DNA of 64,000 bases from the NCBI GenBank assembly GCA_030386875.1, contig CM059557.1, positions 57,428,514-57,492,513 of the forward strand. The letters are read 5' to 3'. The notes beneath the pieces are model-generated. The model was not told the DNA's origin, did not search any database, and saw nothing but the letters and a program-made list of their open reading frames with translations. The stretch comes from Morinoia aosen (lineage: Eukaryota; Arthropoda; Malacostraca; Amphipoda; Talitridae). The position numbers and the translations under genes were made by a program. Shown in pieces: positions 1-36,630 of this stretch; position 1 is the stretch's first letter; every line of letters starts with the position of its first letter.

Positions 1-2000
1 CATTCTGCTCCGGTGATGAAGCTAATGAAGAATGGCTATCAGACAGGCAACGTTCTCGTTGATCGTATACAGGTATTGGAAAAGCTGCTCCAGAAACAAC
101 ATAAGAAAGTAAGAAAGAAATACCCTATGTCCTCTCACTCAGAACAAAAACACCTTTATTCGGTTACCTATATTGTATAAGCATTCGTTTCTTTTAATAA
201 GGGACAAAGCAGAAGCACAATATAAGATGGTCGGTTTGACGTAAAAATGTCTGCCTCTCGTGGAAATTTGAGCTTTGAGAAAACCTCAGGACGCAGACAA
301 GGGCGGAAGCCCGGCGTGTCCGACTAGCGCCATTAAAAGGCGTTCTTTTGAGGCGGCCACCTGTAGCAGATTCTATCTCGAGAACATCTCGCGAGATTCG
401 CGTCGGGGCCGCCGGAGGAGTTGCGCGACTCCTAGTCATTAGGGTTGCAATCTCTGCCGCAGAACATCAATGAGAAAGTCAAACAAGCCTCTTCTTTTCC
501 GCGGGCTCTCAGCTTCAAATTTTCCATTTGCTGCCTAAATACTTGACGAATCTTGATAGGGTTGCTTCGGACGGCTGTGGAGGACTCGTAAAATGTTTGA
601 AGAGGAGCCAAAGGATATTCGCAGACTCAAATTTTTCTCAATCTCGTGTGAAGTGTGGAGGACGTTTCGAGGCCCTCTGTCTTGCCCCACACGCTGCGGT
701 GTTTGCTGTAGCAAAAATGGTAAATATTGTCCTGCTCTTTATTGAAAGACGTCGAGATATGTTGAGGGGAAAACATATTAGAAAGTATCCTATTCCTCTG
801 ACTAGACATTGATAGAGCGATATTCTACGACAGTAAAGGATAATTTAAACGAAAGAGCTAACTGGAGATTCATTAAATAGCATTGGTCATCAACTTAGTA
901 TAAATCTCTGCGTAAATAATATGCCTGAACTCCTATCCAACTTCTACCCTAGGAATCTTAATAAAAATCACCGCTATCGACGTAAGTCTCTTATTCGTGA
1001 CTTGAGGTGTAGATCAAAAAAGGACCGAGTTCCGTGATTAGTGAAAGGAGCGCCAAAACACGACTCTTGTTTTGCGCAAATTTTAATTAGTTCTTCAAAG
1101 GCTCGAATTAAACGGATGCTCTACACGGAGAATATTTTTGGAAAACTCTTCCAACGCAGCAATATCCCACAATCTTCATGAGAAAACAAAAAAAAAGAAA
1201 GTAAAGACACCTCCGTTTGAAAGGCCTTAGAAATATTAGCGAGCGTCTGCAAGGGAAAAACGCGTGTGCTTTTCACTCTGTGTCGGGCGGAGAGAAGCCT
1301 GAGGCTGATTGGATGCCAGACCTAACTCGTTCTTTTGAGATAACTCGAGACCGATGAAAAAATCTCTTTTACTTGACTTTATTGTTCCGCTCCCTAGCTC
1401 GCATCCTAATACCTGCAACAACTCCTGCGAGCGTTGCTAAGATTAAAAAATACATAATTATTTCAATTGTTTAGTTTCCTGGAGTAGATATGAACATTCA
1501 GATTCTGTTGAGGCAATACTTGCGGTCTACAGATATTTTACTTCTAAAAACATGGTTAGAAGCATTTCGTGGGAAACTGACAGGCACCGTCATGTTCTAG
1601 CTAAACTGAAGCTAACCATTGGGGTAATTCATTGAATTTCAAGCGCAAAACATTTATTAGTTCCCATTATTTTACAGCTTGAAAGATGATCAAGGAAGTT
1701 TCTGAAAATATCAGATAATTTTTTCAAGAGTGTATCAAATTTTTCAAGGCCACGTCGCCACTCACGTCTAAGAAATACACAATAATGCAATGCTGCGTGT
1801 TTATTAGTTAGAGCTTAGTTAGGCTTAGAGCAGTAACACTGGACAAAGTGCTACAAAGTACCTATAAGCCAGCAGTTAATTATAGGAGTCTTCAAAAAAT
1901 TTTAGTATTTATTGAAATGTTTTTGCAGGGCTACTTAAATCCATTAAATAATAGCAAAAATACAGGATCTGAAGTGTTTGCATTATACAGCGTGATTCGT
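1..2000. other. intergenic, no gene recognised
   Basis: AT-rich sequence. Open frames here are short, lie in unrelated frames on both strands and contain no domain I recognise. The last part, from about 1850, is unique sequence leading into the 30-bp array. I see no convincing RNA gene or mobile-element terminus. Confidence 0.6.
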
Positions 2001-3420
2001 GTTGCCATTATGTGCTCTGAACACCATTGTGTTGCCATTATGTGCTCTGAACACCATTGTGTTGCCATCATGTGCTCTGAACACCATTGTGTTGCCATTA
2101 TGTGCTCTGAGCACCATTGTGTTGCCGTTATGTGCTCTGAACACCATTGTGTTGCCAATATGTGCTCAGAACACCATTGTGTTGCCATTATGTGCTCTGA
2201 ACACCATTGTGTTGCCATTATGTGCTCTGAACACCATTGTGTTGCCATCATGTGCTCTGAACACCATTGTGTTGCCATTATGTGCTCTGAGCACCATTGT
2301 GTTGCCGTTATGTGCTCTGAACACCATTGTGTTGCCAATATGTGCTCTGAACACCATTGTGTTGCCATCATGTGCTCTGAACACCATTGTGTTGCCATCA
2401 TGTGCTCTGAACACCATTGTGTTGTCATTATGTGCTCTGAACACCATTGTGTTGCCAATATGTGCTCTGAACACCATTGTGTTGCCAATATGTGCTCTGA
2501 ACACCATTGTGTTGCCGTTATGTGCTCTGAACACCATTGTGTTGCCAATATGTGCTCTGAACACCATTGTGTTGCCATTATGTGCTCTGAACATCATTGT
2601 GTTGCCAATATGTGCTCTGAACACCATTGTGTTGCCATCATGTGCTCTGAACTCCATTGTGTTGCCGTTATGTGCTCTGAACACCATTGTGTTGCCATCA
2701 TGTGCTCTGAACACCATTGTGTTGCCAATATGTGCTCTGAACACCATTGTGTTGCCAATATGTGCTCTGAACACCATTGTGTTGCCATCATGTGCTCTGA
2801 ACACCATTGTGTTGCCAATATGTGCTCTGAACACCATTGTGTTGCCATTATATGCTCTGAACACCATTGTGTTGCCATCATGTGCTCTGAACACCATGGT
2901 GTTGCCATTATGTGCTCTGAACACCATTGTGTTGCCATCATGTGCTCTGAACACCATTGTGTTGCCAATATGTGGTCTGAACACCATTGTGTTGCCATTA
3001 TGTGCTCTGAGCACCATTGTGTTGCCATTATGTGCTCTGAACACCATTGTGTTGCCATCATGTGCTCTGAACACCATTGTGTTGCCATCATGTGCTCTGA
3101 ACACCATTGTGTTGCCATTATGTGCTCTGAACACCATTGTGTTGCCATCATGTGCTCTGAACACCATTGTGTTGCCATCATGTGCTCTGAACACCATTGT
3201 GTTGCCATCATGTGCTCTGAACACCATTGTGTTGCCATTATGTGCTCTGAGCACCATTGTGTTGCCGTTATGTGCTCTGAGCACAATCGTGTTGCCATTA
3301 TGTGCTCTGAACACCATTGTGTTGCCATCATGTGCTCTGAACACCATTGTGTTGCCATTATGTGCTCTGAGCACCATTGTGTTGCCGTTATGTGCTCTGA
3401 GCACAATCGTGTTGCCAGCA
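2001..3420. repeat. 30-bp minisatellite, about 47 copies
   Basis: The unit is tgtgctctgaacaccattgt followed by gttgccatta. It repeats head to tail with exact 30-base spacing. Variants are concentrated in the last bases (ccatta, ccatca, ccaata, ccgtta) and in aacacc versus gcacc. Because 30 is a multiple of three and the unit lacks stop codons in several frames, long frames run through the array on both strands, one of them 537 codons. Each just repeats a decapeptide such as VAIMCSEHHC. I treat these frames as by-products of the repeat and not as genes. Confidence 0.97.
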
Positions 3421-9622: not shown

Positions 9623-9623
9623 A

Positions 9624-11085
9624 CCCCACAGCTGGTACCACCCTCTCGCATCCCCCGGCACCACACAGCTGGTACCACCCTCTCACATCCCCCTGCACCA
9701 CGCAGCTGGTACCACCCTCTCACATCTCCCGGCACCACACAGCTGGTACGTCCCTCACACATCCCCCTGCACCACACAGCTGGTACCACCCTCTCACATC
9801 TCCCGGCTCCACACAGCTGGTATCTCCCTCTCACATCCCCCTGCACCACACAGCTGGTACCTCCCTCTCACATCTCCCGGCTCCACACAGCTGGTACGTC
9901 CCTCACACATCCCCCTGCACCACACAGCTGGTACCACCCTCTCACATCTCCCGGCTCCACACAGCTGGTACCTCCCTCTCACATCCCCCTGCACCACACA
10001 GCTGGTACCACCCTCTCACATCTCCCGGCTCCACACAGCTGGTACCTCCCTCTCACATCCCCCGGCACCAAACAGCTGGTACCTCCCTCTCACATCCCCC
10101 GGCACCACACAGCTGGTACGTCCCTCACACATCTTCCGGCACCACACAGCTGGTACCTCCCTCTCACATCCCCCTGCACCACACAGCTGGTACCACCCTC
10201 TCACATCTCCCGGCACCACACAGCTGGTACCTCCCTCTCACTTCTCCCGGCACCCCACTGCTGGTACCACCCTCTCACATCTCCCGGCACCCCACAGCTG
10301 GTACCACCCTCTCACATCTCCCGGCACCACACAGCTGGTACCTCCCTCTCACATCTCCCGGCACCCCAAAGCTGGTACCACCCTCTCACATCTCCCGGCA
10401 CCCCACAGCTGGTACCACCCTCTCACATCTCCCGGTACCACACAGCTGGTACCTCCCTCTCACATCCCCCTGCACCACACAGCTGGTACGTCCCTCACAC
10501 ATCCCCCGGCACCACACAGCTGGTACCTCCCTCTCACATCCCCGGCACCACACAGCTGGTACCTCCCTCTCACATCCCCCGACACCACACAGCTGGTACC
10601 ACCCTCTTACATCTCCCGGCACCACACAGCTGGTACCACCTTCTCACATCCCCCGACACCACACAGCTGGTACCACCCTCTCACATCCCCCGACACCACA
10701 CAGCTGGTACCACCCTCTCACATCTCCCGGCACCACACAGCTGGTACCACCCTCTCACATCTCCCGGCACCACACAGCTGGTACAACCTTCTCACATCTC
10801 CCGGCACCACACAGCTGGTACAACCTTCTCACATCTCCTGGCACCACACAGCTGGTACCACCCTCTCACATCCCCCGGCACCACACAGCTGGTACCACCC
10901 TCTCACATCTCCTGGCACCACACAGCTGGTACCACCCTCTCACATCCCCTTGCACCACACAGCTAGTACCACCCTTTCACATCCCCCGGCACCACACAGC
11001 TGGTACCACCCTCTCACATCCCTCGGCACCACACAGCTGGTACCACCCTCTCACATCCCCCTGCCCCACACAGCAGGTATGTGGG
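9624..11085. repeat. 37-bp minisatellite A, about 39 copies
   Basis: The unit is ctggtaccaccctctcacat followed by cccccggcaccacacag. Recurring variants are cctccctctc, cgtccctcacac, cccctgcacc and tctcccggc, so each copy mixes two or three variable blocks. The period is not a multiple of three, so a frame cycles through all three phases every 111 bases. None of the three phases has a stop, which gives the 513-codon plus-strand frame at 9618-11159. Proline- and histidine-rich repeats (HSWYHPLTSPGTTQLVPPS) are its translation. I read this as repeat read-through and not a gene. Confidence 0.97.
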
Positions 11086-16728: not shown

Positions 16729-18250
16729 GCTTGCTGCGGGTGTGTGGGGCTCCGTGTGCTGGGTGTGTGGGCCTCTGCCTGCTGGGTGTGTGGGGCTCCG
16801 TGTGATGGGTGTGTGGATCCTACATAATGGGTGTGTGGGCCTCTGCCTGCTGGGTGTGTGGGGCTCCGTGTGCTGGGTATGTGGGGCTCCGTGTGCTGGG
16901 TGTGTGGATCCTAAATAATGGGTGTGTGGGCCTCTGCCTGCTGGGTGTGTGGGGCTCCGTGGGCTGGGTGTGTGGGGCTCCGTGTGCTGGGTGTGTGGGG
17001 CTCCGTGTGCTGGGTGTGTGGGGCTTTGTGTGCTGAGTGTGTGGGCCTCTGCCTGCTGGGTGTGTGGGGCTTTGTGTGCTGGGTGTGTGGGCCTCTGCCT
17101 GCTGGGTGTGTGGGGCTTTGTGTGCTGGGTGTGTGGGCCTCTGCCTGCTGGGTGTGTGGGGCTTTGTGTGCTGGGTGTGTGGGCCTCTGCCTGCTGGGTG
17201 TGGGGGGCTTTGTGTGCTTGGTGTGTGGGCCTCTGCCTGCTGGGTGTGTGGGGCTCAGTGTGCTGGGTGTGTGGGGCTTTGTGTGCTGGGTGTGTGGGCC
17301 TCTGCCTGCTGGGTGTGTGGGGCTTTGTGTGCTGGGTGTGTGGGCCTCTGCCTGCTGGGTGTGTGGGGCTCCGTGTGCTGGGTGTGTGGAGCTTTGTGTG
17401 CTGGGTGTGTGGGCCTCTGCCTGCTGGGTGTGTGGGGCTTTGTGAGCTGGGTGTGTGGGCCTCTGCCTGCTGGGTGTGTGGGGCTCAGTGTGCTGGGTGT
17501 GTGGGGCTTTGTGCGCTGGGTGTGTGGGCCTCTGCCTGCTGGGTGTGTGGGGCTTTGTGTGCTGGGTGTGTGGGGCTAATAGTGCTGGGTGTGTGGGACT
17601 GCTATTGCTGGGTGTGTGGGGCTGCTGGTGCTGGGTGTGTGGGGCTGCTAGTGCTGGGTGTGTGGGGCTGCTAGTGCTGGGTGTGTGGGGCTACTAGTGC
17701 TGGGTGTGTGGGGCTACTAGTGCTGGGTGTGTGGGGCTGCTAGTGCTGGGTGTGTGGGGCTGCTAGTGCTGGGTGTGTGGGGCTGCTAGTGCTGGGTGTG
17801 TGGGGCTGCTAGTGCTGGGTGTGTGGGGCTACTAGTGCTGGGTGTGTGGGGCTGCTGGTGCTGGGTGTGTGGGGCTGCTAGTGCTGGGTGTGTGGGGCTG
17901 CTAGTGCTGGGTGTGTGGGGCTACTATAGTGCTGGGTGTGTGCGGCTACTAGTGCTGGGTGTGTGTGGCTGCTAGTGCTGGGTGTGTGGGGCTGCTAGTG
18001 CTGGGTGTGTGGGGCTGCTAGTGCTGGGTGTGTGGGGCTGCTAGTGCTGGGTGTGTGGGGCTGCTAGTGCTGGGTGTGTGGGGCTACTATAGTGCTGGGT
18101 GTGTGCGGCTACTAGTGCTGGGTGTGTGTGGCTGCTAGTGCTGGGTGTGTGGGGCTACTAGTGCTGGGTGTGTGTGGCTGCTAGTGCTGGGTGTGTGGGG
18201 CTGCTAGTGCTGGGTGTGTGGGGCTGCTAGTGCTGGGTGTGTGGGTCCCA
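16729..18250. repeat. 23-bp G-rich minisatellite, about 66 copies, two domains
   Basis: The core unit is ctgggtgtgtggggct plus a 7-base variable tail. In the first domain (to about 17570) units alternate between gggcctctgcctg and ggggctttgtgtg or ggggctccgtgtg, giving a 46-base dimer. In the second domain (17570-18250) nearly all units end in gctgctagtg or gctactagtg. The plus strand carries GGG and GGGG runs in every unit. Frames of up to 250 codons, all cysteine-, tryptophan- and glycine-rich (CWVCGALCAGCVG), are read-through of the array. Confidence 0.97.
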
Positions 18251-23527: not shown

Positions 23528-24628
23528 TTCTTTCGCTTGGACCTGGAATGAGCTTTACTTTGTGTCCTCTCGCGTGGACCTGGAATGAGCTTTACTTTGT
23601 GTCTTCTCGCGTGGACCTGAAATGAGCTTTACTTTGTGTCCTCTCGCGTGGACCTGAAATGAGCTTTACTTTGTGTCCTCTCGCGTGGACATGAAATGAG
23701 CTTCACTTTGTGTCTTCTCGCGTGGACCTGAAATGAGCTTTACTTTGTGTCCTCTCGCGTGGACCTGAAATGAGCTTTACTTTGTGTCCTCTCGCGTGGA
23801 CCTGAAATGAGCTTTACTTTGTGTCTTCTCGCGTGGACCTGAAATGAGCTTTACTTTGTGTCCTCTCGCGTGGACCTGAAATGAGCTTCACTTTGTGTCC
23901 TCTCGCGTGGACCTGAAATGAGCTTTACTTTGTGTCCTCTCACATGGACCTGAAATGAGCTTTACTTTGTGTCTTCTCGCGTGGACCTGAAATGAGCTTT
24001 ACTTTGTGTCTTCTCGCGTGGACCTGAAATGAGCTTTACTTTGTGTCCTCTCGCGTGGACCTGAAATGAGCTTTACTTTGTGTCCTCTCACATGGACCTG
24101 AAATGAGCTTTACTTTGTGTCTTCTCGCGTGGACCTGAAATGAGCTTTACTTTGTATCCTCTCGCGTGGACCTGAAATGAGCTTTACTTTGTGTCCTCTC
24201 ACATGGACCTGAAATGAGCTTTACTTTGTGTCTTCTCGCGTGGACCTAAAATGAGCTTTACTTTGTGTCTTCTCGCGTGGACCTGAAATGAGCTTTACTT
24301 TGTGTCTTCTCGCGTGGACCTGAAATGAGCTTTACTTTGTGTCTTCTCGCGTGGACCTGAAATGAGCTTTACTTTGTATCCTCTCGCGTGGACCTGAAAT
24401 GAGCTTTACTTTGTATCCTCTCGCGTGGACCTGAAATGAGCTTTACTTTGTATCCTCTCGCGTGGACCTGAAATGAGCTTTACTTTGTGTCCTCTCACAT
24501 GGACCTGAAATGAGCTTTACTTTGTGTCTTCTCGCGTGGACCTGAAATGAGCTTTACTTTGTATCCTCTCGCGTGGACCTGAAATGAGCTTTACTTTGTG
24601 TTCGTTAGCGTGGATCTGGAATGAGGTT
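23528..24628. repeat. 37-bp minisatellite B, about 30 copies
   Basis: The unit is tcgcgtggacctgaaatgag followed by ctttactttgtgtcctc. Variants alternate between tgtcctctcgcg, tgtcttctcgcg, tgtatcctctcgcg and tgtcctctcacatgg. The cacatgg variant recurs at spacings near 148, 111 and 297 bases, which are close to multiples of 37. The outermost copies (cgcttggacctggaatg at the left, agcgtggatctggaatgagg at the right) are the most diverged, as is usual for array edges. It is unrelated in sequence to minisatellite A despite the equal period. Confidence 0.97.
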
Positions 24629-25336
24629 TTCTCAAAAAAGTGTTTATTCTAATTTTAGTCAGACTAAAGTAAATGTGGGAACAATGCAAATTTAAAACAC
24701 GATGAAGGATATTAATAAACGATATCGTCCATACGGGATATCATAACACTGAAAACTGGCACTCGTAAAACCGTCCATAGTTTCGTTATTTCCTAGGAAA
24801 TGTCCCTTATTCACAGTAAATCCCAAAAAGGAACATTTAAATCTAAATGACTAGAAATACGTGAATAAAAGCATTTATCGTCATTTCAAAGGTATAAAAT
24901 AGTTTTCAATTAATGTTAACCCCACCGAACGGTCTTAACTAATTCACGGTGCCGCTATTGTTCACTTCCCCCATAACGTTGAACAACGTCTATATTCTTA
25001 GATGCAAGGCCACACTATTTTACGAGCAGCACACAAGTCGGTGAAAACACAGATTTGACCAAGAACTGCAGAGATAGCCATTCTTTACTGAGGCATTTCT
25101 GGAGCAACGCGGCGCCCTGGAGGATCGAGTTAATGGAGCGGCAGCGCTGATCTCGTGACGCCCCCCGCATGCAAGCCGCGGAGTCGACGTGCTGGCCAGC
25201 CTGCCCGTCACCGAGCGTCTGCTTCACGGGCGTCTAGTGAGCAAACGGACCACGTTGTCAGACGTGCTCATCCCTGTGGACTGCCGTGTGTACGGGGAAA
25301 TTCCGAGTATACCTCAGTCTGTCTACTGTATATACC
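24629..25336. other. intergenic with a GC-rich patch
   Basis: No gene recognised. A GC-rich patch at about 25090-25260 has overlapping frames on both strands. Confidence 0.45.
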
Positions 25337-29115: not shown

Positions 29116-29138
29116 GCAGTATTCCATACTTCACACCC

Positions 29139-29732
29139 CAGTCTGCAAGCAGCACCCCATGCTACACACCCCAGCCTGCAAGCAGCACCCCATGCTACAC
29201 ACCCCAACCTGCAAGCAGCACACATGCTACACACCCCAGCCTGCAAGCAGCACACATGCTACACACCCCAGCCTGCAAGCAGCACCCCATGCTACACACC
29301 CCAGCCTGCAAGCAGCACTCCATGCTATACACCCCAGCCTGCAAGCAGCACCCCATGCTACACACCCCAGCCTGCAAGCAGCACCCATGCTATACACCCC
29401 AGCCTGGAAGCAGCACCCCATGCTACACACCCCAGCCTGCAAGCAGCACCCCATGCTATACACCCCAGCCTGCAAGCAGCACTCCATGCTATACACCCCA
29501 GCCTGCAAGCAGCACTCCATGCTATACACCCCAGCCTGCAAGCAGCACTCCATGCTATACACCCCAGCCTGCAAGCAGCACCCCATGCTACACACCCCAG
29601 CCTGCAAGCAGCACCCCATGCTACACACCCCAGCCTGCAAGCAGCACTCCATGCTATACACCCCAGCCTGCAAGCAGCACCCCATGCTACACACCCCAGC
29701 CTGCAAGCAGCACCCCATGCTATACACCCCAG
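29139..29732. repeat. 33-bp minisatellite, left segment, about 18 copies
   Basis: The unit is cctgcaagcagcaccccatg followed by ctacacaccccag, with ctatacac as the common variant. Two 31-32-base units read agcacacatg and one reads agcacccatg. The array stops abruptly at 29732 in atacaccccag and resumes in the same orientation at 35824. Several frames on both strands are open through it (CKQHPMLHTPA, ASSTPCYTPQP), but these are read-through. Confidence 0.96.
29722..29732. repeat. putative target-site duplication, left copy
   Basis: atacaccccag at the last position of the left 33-bp segment. An identical copy begins the right segment at 35824-35834. Confidence 0.65.
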
Positions 29733-29743
29733 GGGGGGGGGGG
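29732..29743 (+). repeat. G12 homopolymer at the retrotransposon 3' junction
   Basis: Twelve G residues join the minisatellite to the element. The first may belong to the target copy. On the element's own strand this is a terminal C tract. Confidence 0.9.
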
Positions 29744-29976
29744 CGATGCCATTAGGAAAGAGAGGAAAAAGAGAGTTTGGCACAGAGTGTGCCAGAAGAA
29801 CAGAAAGCGAAAGGGAAGAGGATAGTAGGAGAGGGAAGAGACGCGGAAAAAGCGCATAATTTGGTGATCCTGTTGACGTAATTTCACATATAAGGTTTCC
29901 CTGGGGTATGGGATAAGGGAACCTTTCAAGGCTTTATATGTACAAATTATCAAGTTCTAAAGTGCCGATGTGGCTA

Positions 29977-29996
29977 TTACCTAATATTATAGGTAA
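29977..29996. other. small hairpin in the retrotransposon 3' region
   Basis: ttaccta (29977-29983) and taggtaa (29990-29996) form a perfect 7-bp stem with a six-base loop. A further short stem, tggcac/gtgcca, lies at about 29780-29800. Confidence 0.6.
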
Positions 29997-30111
29997 AGCG
30001 TAACTATATATACATATTAACCTTATATTACATTTAAAGGCTGAGGTATATCTACAAGGTAATCTCATGTACCCATCCCTAACCGACTAATTCGCAAAGT
30101 AGTTAGTTATT

Positions 30112-30633
30112 TTACACACATTTATACAGATTGAGGAATAATTTACATAAAGGTATGTATGATGATTGCTGTGGGTATTTCTAAAATGATGGTTTACATA
30201 TAACATTATTATAGTACACATATACATAAATACACATTTTTTCATTTTTTTATTTTTTATTTTTTTGTTTATTTTTTAATTTTTTTTACATTTTTTTTCT
30301 TCTTTTTTAAATATATGTGCACAAATTGAGGAATATATTACATATAGATATGTATGATGCTTGCTATGGATATTTACAAATTGACAATTTACACATATTA
30401 CTGCTGTACATACATACTCATACATACACGTACATATGTATTGAGCAGAACAAATATGTATAGATATTTTTTTATATTATTATTAAATGTTTTTTTTCTT
30501 TTTTTTTCCTTAATAACATATGTACAAATTTGAAAATATTTTACAGAAATAAATGTGTGATTGCTATGGGTATTTTTAAAATTGTCAATTTACAATTTAC
30601 ATGTAACAAAATATACATATATACACTCATATG

Positions 30634-30640
<7 letters not shown>
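30112..30640. repeat. three diverged ~200-base direct repeats, T-rich
   Basis: Similar modules start near 30117, 30312 and 30518. Each reads roughly: (g)tacaaattgaggaatat, then ttacat, then atgtatgatgattgct, then atgggtatttctaaaat, then a tttacat/ttacacat block, then a T-rich stretch. They lie in the 3' region of the retrotransposon. Spacing is near 195-205 bases. Confidence 0.75.
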
Positions 30641-30723
<83 letters not shown>

Positions 30724-30762
30724 TATATATATATAAACCATCATATATATATATATATCTAT
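30638..30762. repeat. (AT)n microsatellite
   Basis: An almost pure TA run of about 80 bases to 30719, followed by interrupted atatataa and atatatatct pieces. It lies within the 3' region of the retrotransposon, and open frames rich in Tyr and Ile across it are artefacts. Confidence 0.95.
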
Positions 30763-31030
30763 ATAAACCAAAGAGAAAAATATATATATATATTTTTTTT
30801 CTCTTCATTTTTTTACAATATCACAACAAAGCCCTTATGCAGCCTTGTCACCGGCATCTCCACCACATGTCCCCCCCGGGACGCTCCACCTCAAAAAGGA
30901 CGTAAGAACATGTAAGGTTGGCGACTGATATTTTACTGAAAGGTTATGAATATGTGGTGAGTGAGGACGGAATGATCAATGACTATTTGGAGGTTGACTA
31001 TTTAGTGTTGATTGAAAATTGAGGTTGTGG

Positions 31031-31094
31031 TTTGGGGTTTTGGCTTCCCGCCCGTGGGGGGAAGACCGTTCCGTCCGCTCGCCAAAACCCCAAA
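31031..31094. other. perfect 14-bp stem in the retrotransposon 3' region
   Basis: tttggggttttggc (31031-31044) and gccaaaaccccaaa (31081-31094) are exact reverse complements, about 36 bases apart. The site is about 70-130 bases past the ORF2 stop on the element's strand. Confidence 0.85.
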
Positions 31095-31163
31095 TAAAAA
31101 ACAAAGTAAATAAGTAATTGAAAATTGTTACGGTCTTCCCCATTGATTGCTGATGAAAATTTA

Positions 31164-33893
31164 TTATAAGTATCTTGGTTCCGGGGGAGGTCCTAATGCT
31201 GGAAGTTTGGAGCTCTTAAAACGTGAATTTTGGCTATTGGCTGTATCTTCTAGAAATGTCAACTGTTGAAATAGGTCTTGGTCAAACTGCTGTAAATTAT
31301 CCCATATTCTGTTGGCATGAGTGTGAAGCAGAAGGTTTATAGGAGGTAAGTCGACTTGATGATGCAGTGATAAAGAAGAGGTACGGTCCATGCGTGTTGT
31401 ATTGGTGATGAACCGGAGTGCTCTGTTTTGGACTTTTTGTAGCTTCGAAATGGCAGTTGGAGACAATGTGTGGAGTGGGATAGCTGGATAGATGAGTGCT
31501 GATCTGACGAATGATAGATATAATTTGCGTTTTGTTGTCTGTGAAAGGTGCATAAATCTGTACAGTTTGCTCAAGTTGCTGAATCCTATTGCCGTGTGTT
31601 GAATCCTAAATCCGTGTGTTGAAAAGTTTAGACCTAGAATTTTGCCTTTATTGGAGTATGGAAAATGTTGATCATCTATGAAGATGTCTGCGGTTTTGAT
31701 TCTGCTGATTGGAATTATCTTAAATTTTTTGACGTTGGTGGAAATTTTCCATCTGGCTTCGAAATTGTTAATTTGTTGTATGGCATGCTGTGTTTGTTCA
31801 GCTGCAAAGTTCGGAGTGTAACGGCCAGCAGAAATTTGGGTGATGTCGTCGGCAAAGCATATGTAATCAGTATTGGGTATTGGTCCCGGGATGTCATGAG
31901 TATAGAAACTATATAATGTCGGCGATAAACAAGCTCCCTGTGGTACCCCAGTTTGCAGTATAAATGATGGACCTATGAAGTTCCCTATTCTTATTGATGC
32001 GCTCCTGTCTGTTAAGTAGTCGGCCAGTGTCCGTAAAAATAATGGATGAATTCCAGATTGTGAGAGTTTGAATATCAATCCTAAGTGCCATACCTTGTCA
32101 AAAGCTTTGGTCACGTCTCTGAGAACTATGTCTATGGTAAATTTATTGGCTAGATTTATTGCTAGTGTTTCGGTAAACGTTGCCAAGGCGGTGTGGGTTC
32201 CCTTGCTTCTCCTAAAACCATGTTGTCTATTGTTGTATAAGTTGTTAATGGTCAAATGGTCTGTAAGTCTATTGTTGAGTATCTTGTCTAAAAGTTTGCC
32301 ATGGATGTCTAATAGAGATATTGGTCGGTAGTTCTGCACCTGTTTTTGAGACGTGAGGGGTTTTGGGAGAAAAATCATAATGGCGTGTTTGAGACTGTCT
32401 GGGAAGTAGCCTGCTGAGATGGAGTTATTGAAGATATTTAACAAGTATTGTAACATATTAATCGGTAGGTTTTTTATTTGAAGGGTAGTTATGCCAGTTG
32501 GACCTGGAGCTTTCTGCTTGAAGGATCTCAATGTCTGTTTTAACTTATCTATTGTTATAGGGGGAAAATGAAGTTGGTCAAGTCTGTTGGTATTTCCGGT
32601 ATGAAATGGTATTACTTGCTCTGATAAATTGGTCATGTGTTCCTTTACTGCATTGATGTGGTCTAAGTCAAATTCTTCGTCCTCATCTGTCTCGGTAAAA
32701 ATGTTTTTCCAGTGCTCTCTGAATACTATTTCCTTTTCTTGCGGAGTGTGTAATTCTTTTTTGTTATGAATTAGGTATGGGATTGTTTGTTTGTTGTTGT
32801 AGCCTATCATTCTCTTAATTGACGACAAGAATATCTTGGGATCTTCTTGCAATTCTAATGATTGAAATAAAGTATTCCAAGTTTGTGCGTATGCCTGTTT
32901 GTATAGGTTTAGTATTTGCCGTCTGAGATTGATGAGAAGTCTATGGAGTTCTCTGGTTGTTCCGTTGTTGTGAATATAATCTATTGTATGTTGGTATCTG
33001 ACTTGAGTACGGAGTATTTCGGGTGTAGGTTTTATTCCGGGGATAGTTCTATGGGTTATATTTGGAATGGCAATTTTTGTGGCTCCGTGAATATGCTCGG
33101 TCCACTTCTCCAGATGATCATCTATTTCCTCTAACGTTTGTTCTTCTTGCATATCGGGGGATACAACGGCTAGTTGTTCTCTGTATTTCCTCCAATCTGC
33201 TCTATGATATTGTTTCCTTGGTTTGATGGGAATCTGAATTGGGTTTGCTGTTATGGTTGCTATTATAGGGATATGGTCAGAAGGTGTTACAGGTCCTGGT
33301 TGAAAAAATATATTATGGTAGGCTAATGGGTTCTGTAGAGCAATGTCTGGTGTAGAGGTGCTTTTGTGGGTGATCATTGTGGGAAAGTATGGACCTATGT
33401 GAATACATTTTTGTCTCTCTATCAGGTAGTGAAGATGGTTTCCTCTTCTGTTGTTATGTGAGTTTCCTATGGTTCTATGGGATGCATTGATGTCGCCTAT
33501 GAAATATACAGGGTTTGGTCTGTTGAATAGTGTGTGGAAATCTGCAAAGTGAAGATAATCGACTCTCGGTGGGGTGTAAGTTGTGCCTATTGTAAGTGGT
33601 CATTGAAGAGTGTCGACGGTGACTGCCATCATGTCTGAGTAGAAATCGTCTTGTAGTCTACATGGAATGTTCTTTTTTATTGCTATTGCAGCCCCTGCAT
33701 GTTGTTCGTTTGTCTTGTTTGCGTAAAAAGTATTATAGTTGAATATCTTCATATGTTTATCTCCTGTTAAGCTGTGAGCGTTTATTAAAACTATGTCAGG
33801 ATCTATGTGATTTTTGATGCTGGTTAGGGCTATTTTGTTGGTATTCCAGCACTGTACGTTATGTTGTACTATTGTCAATTTGCGTAGATTCAT
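31164..33893 (-). pseudogene. non-LTR retrotransposon ORF2: endonuclease and reverse transcriptase
   Basis: ORF2 nicks target DNA and copies the element RNA by target-primed reverse transcription. The start ATG is at 33893 and one TGA at 33600-33602 interrupts an otherwise continuous ~909-codon frame; the part after 33377 alone is 737 codons. N-terminal endonuclease: IVQHNVQCW, GAAIAIKKN, then after the stop TIGTTYTPPR, YFIGDINASH and SDHIPI. Reverse transcriptase: KAPGPTGITTLQIKNLP, NYRPISLLDIHGKLLDKIL, motif A with DVTKAFDKVWH, motif B TGVPQGACLSP, motif C FADD. A C-terminal conserved tail follows (VQNRALRFITN). All three catalytic Asp residues of the polymerase are present. The endonuclease position usually Glu in L-N-E reads INAHSL. 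One point change separates it from a full frame. Confidence 0.92.
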
Positions 33894-35576
33894 TGTGTAG
33901 TGCGAATATTTTTAGGTTTTTTGGTTGCTGTGACCATTGATTGGTGTCTGGGGAACGTTATGAATTGTTCGTGTGGTATTATATTTATTTTAATCCGGGT
34001 GAATTGAACTCTTTTTGCAAATATGTATTCCAGAAGTGTCGCTGATCTCATTTCCTGCACTGAAAATTTATACCCGCTTTCATTGTCTTTTTTTGGCTCA
34101 GATATATAACAGTCTGCGTCTGGTTCTTCTGGTATTGGTGATCGATCCTGAAAATTACGGTACAGTTTAATGGGGTGGCTATGTTTCTTGTCTATGATTA
34201 TTGTTGTATTCTCTACTTCATCGCTGATCCTCCTCTTTTGTCTAAGGTCGGTCTCTGTATAAATTCTGTTTCTGTTTGGGTATCCATGGTTTCCTCTACT
34301 ATGTGGTGTTCAGGTGGAGTTGCTTGTGCGATTGGTGTTTCATCGTTTCTATAATAAAAGTTGAAAATAGCAGTCGAGTCTCGTTCTGGGAATGTTGTAT
34401 CATTGTTAAAGTTGTCTTTGAGGAATCTGGACAGAATATTGCCAAATTTCTTTGTTCTGTCAAGTGCTGCTATGTGTGCCTCTAGTATTAAGGCTGTAAG
34501 TTTAATGTGCGTATGGTTGGTGAGGGTTAGGGTGTGTTGCGGTGGATTTGTCTGTTGGATTGCTTGTTTGGTTATTTCTGCGTAGGTAGTATGAGATTTT
34601 TGTTGTTTTTTCAATTGTTCCTCTTCCCGCTTTAGTTTATGATATTTTTTCTGTACGGACAGCTGGCTGCGAGTGTTCTATGCATTCCTTGACAGTTGAG
34701 ACATTACTTCAATGTATTTGTGCAGTTTTGATATGAGTGTTCCTGGGATGAGCATTCAGAACAGAACTGAGAACTTTGTGTGCATTGGAAGGTGGTATGA
34801 TTTTCAAATTTATAACATTTGTAGCAAATCAATATGTGGGTGTATTCTTCCTGCTCGCATTGATGGGGTGTGATTTTTGTATGAAACATGTAGAAACCGT
34901 CTCTGAGTATCCTTTGTGCTGTTAAGGTATCTGTCGTTACTATTTTCATTAGGTGGGTGTAATTTTTTATTTTGATTATGTCTGTTACCTTTATCCAATT
35001 ATTTTGATTTTCGATCTCATTCTTTATTTCGTCTGTTGGTCTCACTCCAATGTCTGAATCAATTTGTCGAACGAATATTGTTCTCTTTGCTCTTAAATCA
35101 GGTGGTATTGCTGGAACGAGGTTTAATTTTTCAAAGACTTGGGTGGCCTTAGGAGATGTTAATTCATCAACGGAATTGGTATCGTCTGTCACAGCGTAAA
35201 ATCCATTTTTGGTGCCTGTGAGCCGGATGAGAGGGGCATTTAATTCTTTGAAAGTGGCTTCGAAGATTTTTGCTTTGTCTGTCTGTTTAGAGGTGTCGAT
35301 GGTTTTGAGTTGGACAGGGTATGTTGGTGTTTTGGCTGGTCGAGGATTTGGAAAGAAGGCTGTCAGCGGTTCCGGAGGATGTAAAATAGTCGGTGGCGCA
35401 GAAGCCGGCCCTGACTTCCCAGAAAAAGAATCAGATCTAGTCCATGAGGTGGAACGGCCCGAAGGCTGGAGAAAAGGTGCACGGGGTGGTTGACTACCCT
35501 GTCCTCCACGACCACCCCCAGCCCCCCTCCCCCGCTCAGGGGGGGGCATAGCAGCTAAAACACCGGTTAACAGCAA
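33890..35576 (-). pseudogene. non-LTR retrotransposon ORF1: zinc-knuckle nucleic-acid-binding protein, broken
   Basis: ORF1 proteins bind the element RNA. The first intact piece (35576-34704, 290 codons) has a Gly/Arg/Pro-rich N-terminus and a fold-like segment around KRTIFVRQIDSDIG. Two zinc knuckles follow, CYKCYKFENHTTFQC and CSECSSQEHSYQNC. It is ended by a TAA just before a third knuckle that is still readable (CLNCQGMHRTLAASC). The frame then changes near 34640 and runs 34614-34213 (TTYAEITKQ). It changes again to reach the natural end. There the last codons read into TGA at 33890-33892, overlapping the ORF2 ATG as ATGA. At least one stop and two frameshifts make it non-functional. The chosen start is the first Met of the longest piece; the true start could be the internal Met ten residues on. 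Confidence 0.85.
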
Positions 35577-35823
35577 TACAAATCAACAAGATCACCAAAA
35601 ATGCACAAAAAAGAAGAAAAACAAATAGAAATGATCACAAGAAATAATAGTCACGAGGCAATCACCCCCTATATGGCTACAATAATAGTAGCTTACCTCT
35701 CACTCCCAAGACAAAAGTAAGGCTATTTAAGAGACAGCACAATTCCCAAGGGGACCAAAACCTTCTCCAAGCAGAGAGCACACGGCAAAGCACACATCCA
35801 CTCGGCACGGTAACCGGAGTGAC

Positions 35824-35834
35824 ATACACCCCAG
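35824..35834. repeat. putative target-site duplication, right copy
   Basis: atacaccccag at the point where the 33-bp array resumes. It is identical to 29722-29732. Confidence 0.65.
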
Positions 35835-36630
35835 CCTGCAAGCAGCACCCATGCTATACACCCCCAGCCTGCAAGCAGCACCCCATGCTACACACCCATG
35901 CCTGCAAGCAGCACCCATGCTATACACCCCAGCCTGCAAGCAGCACCCCATGCTACACACCCCAGCCTGTAAGCAGCACCAGTGCTACACACCCATGCCT
36001 GCAAGCAGCACCCATGCTACACACCCCAGCCTGCAAGCAGCACAAATGCTATACACCCCAGCCTGCAAGCAGCACCCCATGCTACACACCCCAGCCTGTA
36101 AGCAGCACCCATGCTACACACCCCAGCCTGCAAGCAGCACCCATGCTATACACCCCAGCCTGCAAGAAGCACCCCATGCTACACACCCCAGCCTGCAAGC
36201 AGCACCTCAGGCTACACACCCCAGCCTGCAAGCAGCAGCCCATGCTACACACCCATGCCTGCAAGCAGCACCTCATGCTACACACCCCAGCCTGCAAGCA
36301 GCACCCCATGCTACACACCCCAGCCTGCAAGCAGCACCCCATGCTACACACCCATGCCTGCAAGGAGCACCCCATGCTACACACCCCAGCCTGCAAGCAG
36401 CACCCATGCTATACACCCCAGCCTGCAAGAAGCACCCCATGCTACACACCCCAGCCTGCAAGCAGCGCCCCATGCTACACACCCCTGCCTGCAAGCAGCA
36501 GCCCATGCTACACACCCCAGCCTGCAAGCAGCACCCCATGCTACACACCCCAGCCTGCAACCAGCACCCATGCTATACACCCCAGCCTGCTAGCAGCACC
36601 CATGCTATACACCCCAGCCTGCAAGCAATA
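35824..36630. repeat. 33-bp minisatellite, right segment, about 25 copies
   Basis: Same unit and orientation as 29139-29732 (cctgcaagcagcacc, catgctacacacccc). More 32-base units occur here than on the left, and variants such as acacccatgcctg, gcctgtaagc and caagaagcac appear. The last unit reads gcctgcaagcaatatcc and then unique sequence begins. Frames up to 300 codons are read-through. Confidence 0.96.

Follow-up and report, generated by a model that had tools for sequence, protein, structure and literature searches.

A retrotransposon lacking long terminal repeats (LTRs), 6,091 bp in length, interrupts a minisatellite in the 64,000-nucleotide stretch of the Morinoia aosen genome analysed here (the window; C2:57428514-57492513). 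Across the 1.99 Gb (29 contigs) of genome searched, the first 29 bases of this non-LTR element match 80 places with no more than two mismatches, compared to none for a reversed-pattern control. Our reading of the sequences flanking these 5' ends, to which we assign a probability of a little over three in four, is that the element uses TATA-type RNA polymerase II (Pol II) promoters as insertion sites, entering at the transcription start and in the direction of transcription.

For each of the 80 5' ends we read the 52 bp that precede it, and a script sorted the recurrent classes (copies are denoted by L and contigs by C, each followed by a number). Fifty-three flanks fall into recurrent promoter classes, with 18 copies at one site in the histone H2B promoter and 35 in LTR-like sequences (15 in LTR-B, 10 in LTR-C, 7 in LTR-A and 3 in LTR-A2), leaving 27 others. 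Seven of these 27 were placed at promoter starts by eye: L108 and L106 in LTR-C (L106 without a TATA box at the expected place), L022 (TATATAAA), L093 (TACATAAG), L105, which is reversed in LTR-A, and L013 and L016, which are stacked on another element at the LTR-A start. By this reading, 60 of the 80 copies (53 classed and 7 by eye) lie at promoter sites; of the remaining 20, L038 and L082 are possible further cases of recurrent starts.

The gene downstream of L041 encodes a protein with a full-length match to solved H2B (2.8e-68), and in L012 a divergent H2A gene is found upstream. The LTR-B promoter has 819 matches in the genome (at most two mismatches); among the 100 of these listed there are ten same-strand pairs 4.66-4.86 kb apart, as expected of LTRs. 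No fewer than 423 LTR-B starts carry no interruption. Next to the L063 site there is an integrase frame (rve, 2e-14; Integrase_H2C2, 1.4e-17), a weaker integrase signal, below the cut-off, was detected beside L071 in LTR-A (rve_3, 0.00029), and a DUF7041 frame that we read as putatively gag-like is common to L008 and L045, beside LTR-B. LTR-C and L022 are putative LTRs by likeness only.

The property that these sites share is a distance. Measured from the first base of a TATA-like box, the 5' junction comes at 31-36 bp in all 53 classed copies, once extra junction bases are subtracted (5-12 bases in eight copies, namely 10 in L035, 9 in L085, 5 in L046 and 12 in each of five copies on C21, and a single base in seven). 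A TATA-like 7-mer was also sought in 25 unclassed flanks, L122 and L123 having been dropped as duplicates. At 32-36 bp, 9 of the 25 carry such a 7-mer at a looser threshold (at least 5/7), compared to 3.4 in shuffles (P 0.0015), and 4 do so at a stricter one (6/7), compared to 0.5 (P 0.0005); L022, L093, L105 and L108 are among the flanks with these 7-mers. When the search interval was slid along the flanks, the looser score was best (11/25) for intervals starting at 33-34 bp and the stricter one (5/25) for a start at 34 bp, and since these best starts overlap the 32-36 bp tested, the peak stands at the expected place. With the TATA box set at -31, the target-site duplications cover approximately -7 to +3, near the stretch that is melted by Pol II.

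The same flanks bear on the alternative that the starts merely coincide with a motif read by a sequence-specific endonuclease. The same exact sites are struck repeatedly and 8 of 14 distinct targets start with G, both of which speak for such a motif; however, the 14 distinct 10-bp targets, each typed once for its class or site, resemble one another no more than their shuffles do (mean identity 0.249 vs. 0.246, P 0.38), and a shared target sequence was rejected on these grounds. Two copies constitute natural experiments, and both agree with distance over sequence. L108 lies in an LTR-C variant without ~11 bp between the TATA box and the start, and its insertion (duplication TCGGACAGTTC) is found ~9-12 bp further along the LTR sequence, still 34 bp from the TATA box. 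L105, reversed in LTR-A, lies 32-34 bp from the palindromic TATA of that LTR. Recognition of a motif is an explanation that we consider unlikely.

Several observations weigh against insertion at TATA-positioned starts. Without subtraction of the extra junction bases, 45 of the 53 classed copies lie at 31-37 bp and 8 fall outside; the boxes of H2B (TTATTA, TCATTA) and LTR-A2 (TCTACAAG) are weak and were chosen once the junctions were known; and start sites were deduced from TATA spacing, not from RNA. Among the 18 flanks that remain when promoters and duplicates are set aside, only 5 present a TATA-like box at 32-36 bp (those of L009, which is the window copy, L010, L038, L088 and L092), and for 20 of the 80 copies, the window copy included, no promoter was recognised at the site. 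Among the flanks, H2B was the one histone promoter identified, the sequences of the others not having been looked up except for the region upstream of L012, which gave no match. Duplication accounts for some copies (five LTR-A copies on C21; L121-L123). All 53 classed copies are oriented along the direction of transcription, partly by construction, as the classes were defined on the sense strand, and the 3' flanks of L071 and L072 place these two copies, like L105, in reversed orientation at the LTR-A start. In one script-labelled listing of 47 places, the labels are partly wrong (LTR-B standing for many LTR-C starts) and at least one place, C23:37060494, is not an element end; only the flanks printed in that listing were used. 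A loose scan of the 80 flanks for antisense insertions at H2B, LTR-B, LTR-C and LTR-A returned 6 matches, spread over 4 flanks; all of them needed 6 edits within ~20 bases and were judged spurious.

Promoter sequence is also found at the 5' junctions of copies residing elsewhere. The H2B start sequence is GAAATTGT / GAAATTGTA, and the H2B copies L018 and L036 end in GCGAAATTGTA just before the element. In L035, which lies in LTR-B, the duplication GAGCCTCAG is followed by GGAAATTGTA and then by the element; in L082, the duplication GTCGCGAGGC is followed by GAAATTGTG and then by the element (the next G after the duplication may belong to either part). Because these two copies, both outside H2B, carry H2B start-site bases before the element, their junctions suggest that copies in H2B were transcribed from the H2B start, which would make their RNA the product of a captured promoter, and that this RNA carried the start bases along and was inserted elsewhere. 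For L116, capture of an LTR-C start at H2B was considered, but the duplication is ambiguous in the light of the 3' flank, and the extra bases of this copy were not used.

Other 5' ends recur at H2B starts as well. The 36-base H2B core promoter has 163 matches in the genome (at most three mismatches), 41 H2B starts are intact (at most two mismatches), and the H2B start is joined to three 5'-end patterns at 43, 31 and 28 junctions, some of them stacked. Among the 100 H2B promoters listed of the 163 (all exact), 33 are intact, 47 have such a 5' end attached at the start (this element or the L068 kind in 22, the L069 kind in 12 and a third kind in 13) and 20 are in neither group. Six non-intact H2B promoters were read, of which 5 have such a 5' end, 2 of these being of the third kind. 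Identity to this element in open reading frame (ORF) 1 is 74% for L068 (196 columns), 82% for L070 (398 columns) and 51% for L069 (414 columns); the third kind (GTTACCTCATGATC) is known from its first bases alone. The H2B core promoters among the 100 listed lie on C4, C22, C23 and C26.

This occupancy is relevant to the proposal that insertion is near-random and that only promoter copies, which could be better RNA sources, persist or multiply. We find that account very improbable: the location of a source copy does not set where its daughters land, junctions, tails and duplications differ among copies at the same few bases, and 47 of the 100 H2B promoters listed are occupied. There is likewise only a slim chance that most promoter copies descend from a handful of insertions that multiplied as the histone repeats or LTR elements around them were duplicated. 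The five identical LTR-A flanks on C21 and the three L121-type flanks are plainly duplicates, but the LTR-B copies lie on 11 contigs and the H2B copies on 6, there are 12 distinct last-16-base flanks among the 18 H2B copies, and both tail length and junction point vary between copies.

At the window locus, a 33-bp minisatellite array lies in two parts, at 29124-29732 and 35826-36627, with the 11-bp sequence ATACACCCCAG present at 29722-29732 and again at 35824-35834. The features of the locus, in window positions, are the following:

29124-29732, plus strand: left part of the 33-bp minisatellite, 18.5 units.
29722-29732, plus strand: left copy of the 11-bp target-site duplication, ATACACCCCAG.
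29733-35823, minus strand: non-LTR retrotransposon, 6,091 bp, with its 5' end at 35823 and its 3' end at 29733.
29733-29743, minus strand: poly-C tail of the element (a G run on the plus strand).
30611-30765, no strand: AT microsatellite, between ORF2 and the element 3' end.
31164-33599, minus strand: main piece of ORF2, with the end of the endonuclease and the reverse transcriptase.
33600-33911, minus strand: first piece of ORF2, with the endonuclease start in another frame (the frame is broken in the window copy).
33890-35582, minus strand: ORF1, in three pieces (33890-34309, 34213-34677 and 34704-35582), with CCHC-like motifs by eye.
35824-35834, plus strand: right copy of the 11-bp target-site duplication.
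35826-36627, plus strand: right part of the 33-bp minisatellite, 24.6 units.
35853-35858, minus strand: TATA-like TATAGC, 35 bp upstream of the element 5' end, on the element strand.

An earlier note on this stretch had described a 6.1 kb minus-strand non-LTR retrotransposon splitting a single 33-bp array with an 11-bp repeat at the joins, and that description holds. RVT_1 and Exo_endo_phos_2 domains were found within 31164-33599 on the minus strand, and the flanks, joined minus one ATACACCCCAG copy, present an 83% self-match at lag 33 (42% at 32 and 31% at 34). The joined flanks thus stay in 33-bp phase, indicating that the array was formerly single and that the insertion duplicated 11 bp, which constitute a true target-site duplication. 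The exact ends that the note had also proposed, with a search for copies ending elsewhere as the check, are borne out by the 80 genome places that share the 5' end and the 254 that share the 3' end, with one correction: at the low-coordinate end, the run of G (29733-29743) is a poly-C tail on the element sense strand.

A preference of the lineage for minisatellites, which the note had raised as a question, did not survive. The window copy speaks for it, but we give it next to no credence: among the 80 flanks this array occurs only in the window copy, and a tandem-repeat search of the 12 unclassed copies for which ~1.5 kb of sequence upstream was available (the other unclassed copies being represented by short flanks only) places an array at the junction only there (2 bp away), the next nearest being 2.1 units of 21 bp at 35 bp from the junction of L023. 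An element specific for minisatellites or microsatellites was rejected on these counts (1 of 80 flanks; 1 of 12 unclassed long flanks). The TATAGC form is present in 15 of the 42 array units, and the window copy may be either a hit on a TATA-like box in the array or a plain background insertion. Four other long minisatellites lie in the window, at 1999-3417, 9623-11079, 16738-18245 and 23533-24629 (units of 30, 37, 23 and 37 bp); none of them holds a copy, a scan of the window having found the element only at 29733-35823.

Genome-wide, the 3' end of the element has 254 matches (at most one mismatch; none for the reversed-pattern control), and because these outnumber the 80 5' ends, they suggest the presence of 5'-truncated or diverged copies. 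The 5' ends were paired by script with 87 3' places (86 among the 100 listed of the 254, plus that of L046), taking the nearest within 26 kb. Thirty-three of the 80 copies were paired in this way, some pairs, 12-18 kb apart, being possibly wrong, and 28 of the 33 show a duplication of 8-12 bp, which contains a mismatch in one case and in which a C at the front may be part of the tail. The poly-C tail is ~8-26 long in the other copies read and is sometimes interrupted, the script values of 1 (L046) and 5 (L062) being parsing breaks and not lengths; this tail of variable length takes the place of a poly-A or microsatellite tail. Five C21 copies (C21:85.0-86.0 Mb; L020, L021 and L100-L102) have the same 12 extra bases before the 5' end, which repeat bases 9-20 of the element itself, and probably go back to duplication of a single locus at which a 5' template jump had taken place.

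The frames of the window copy are broken, and both are open in L044 and L045. A Pfam scan of L045 ORF2 identified RVT_1 (2.4e-29), Exo_endo_phos_2 (2.5e-09) and Exo_endo_phos (1.7e-05), and by reverse transcriptase sequence the closest solved proteins in a PDB search are LINE-1 ORF2p, then R2, with a group II intron protein also matched. As judged from its reverse transcriptase and APE-like endonuclease in one ORF2, its target-site duplication and its fixed 3' end, the element is an APE-type non-LTR retrotransposon. Its reverse transcriptase motifs are, we presume, closer to Jockey than to R1. Three CCHC-like motifs were seen by eye in ORF1, in which the Pfam scan named no gag or RRM domain, and no RNase H was found in the Pfam scan; an ORF1 of type I, with RRM and CCHC (ORF1 types as in PMC4120745), would be expected in the Jockey lineage.

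The endonuclease appears to depart from the usual APE type at one residue. Glu43 of L1 is the metal-binding Glu of APE nucleases (PMC8565326), and the corresponding position (Glu96 in APE1) is Ala in 10 of the 10 copies read, including L045 and the window copy (LINAH, once LINAN); the GDIN and SDH motifs are retained, and a 49%-identical relative has Ser at this position. The placing depends on a weak alignment, since the alignment with L1 that sets Ala opposite Glu scores -4.2 bits and is not significant. A predicted structure of the endonuclease was discarded (predicted local distance difference test score, pLDDT, of 30), and a PDB search with the endonuclease alone yielded only chance matches.

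Under insertion at TATA-positioned starts, the insertion points would be transcription starts. The RNA-protein particle of the element would be brought in by TBP or by the assembled initiation complex and would nick the start region, perhaps where it is melted, and the new copy would then be transcribed from the captured promoter, from a few bases upstream of its own first base. More tentatively, and as a reading that we hold less likely than not, the element may be a Pol II counterpart of Ty3 acting via target-primed reverse transcription: its particle would dock on TBP or on the initiation complex, and its endonuclease, in which the usual metal-binding Glu is missing, would cut only bent or melted start DNA. 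The host promoter would be captured with RNA starting in duplicated target bases, and a family of elements of this sort would share the host H2B promoters.

Retrotransposon targeting of RNA polymerase III (Pol III) starts is already known. Ty3 of yeast, an LTR retrotransposon, inserts at Pol III start sites, with TFIIIB, including TBP and Brf1, as its targeting factor (PMC5911963). Ty3 resembles this element in inserting at the transcription start itself, but it uses an integrase and Pol III genes, whereas this is a non-LTR element at Pol II promoters. In Dictyostelium, the ORF1 protein of TRE5-A contacts TBP, Brf1 and Bdp1, and Pol III genes are targeted through TFIIIB (PMC5911963). TRE5-A is, like this element, a non-LTR element with an APE-type endonuclease; in contrast, TRE5 elements insert in the orientation opposite to tRNA genes, ~44-54 bp upstream of them, and this element at the start of the Pol II unit in the sense orientation. 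R1, R2, Utopia, TRAS and SART likewise combine multicopy targets with exact ends, but they read a sequence, whereas the targets of this element share their distance from TATA and no sequence. The lists of non-LTR targets in PMC4640811 name no histone gene and no Pol II start, and the words "histone" and "promoter" do not occur in its main text. In the open-access literature we found no report of a non-LTR element measuring the Pol II start from the TATA box. By features and not by tree, the element can be likened to the Jockey lineage (Jockey, HeT-A, TART), given its three ORF1 CCHC motifs by eye, its APE endonuclease and reverse transcriptase and the lack of RNase H in the Pfam scan; the telomere elements of that lineage also depend on a neighbour's promoter.

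If insertion at Pol II starts is true, the element junctions would provide a natural map of start sites, and a LINE living without an upstream promoter of its own would be explained. It would also raise the question of how an animal copes with start-site insertions in as many as 47 among the 100 H2B promoters listed, and would offer a possible means of placing DNA at promoters through target-primed reverse transcription.

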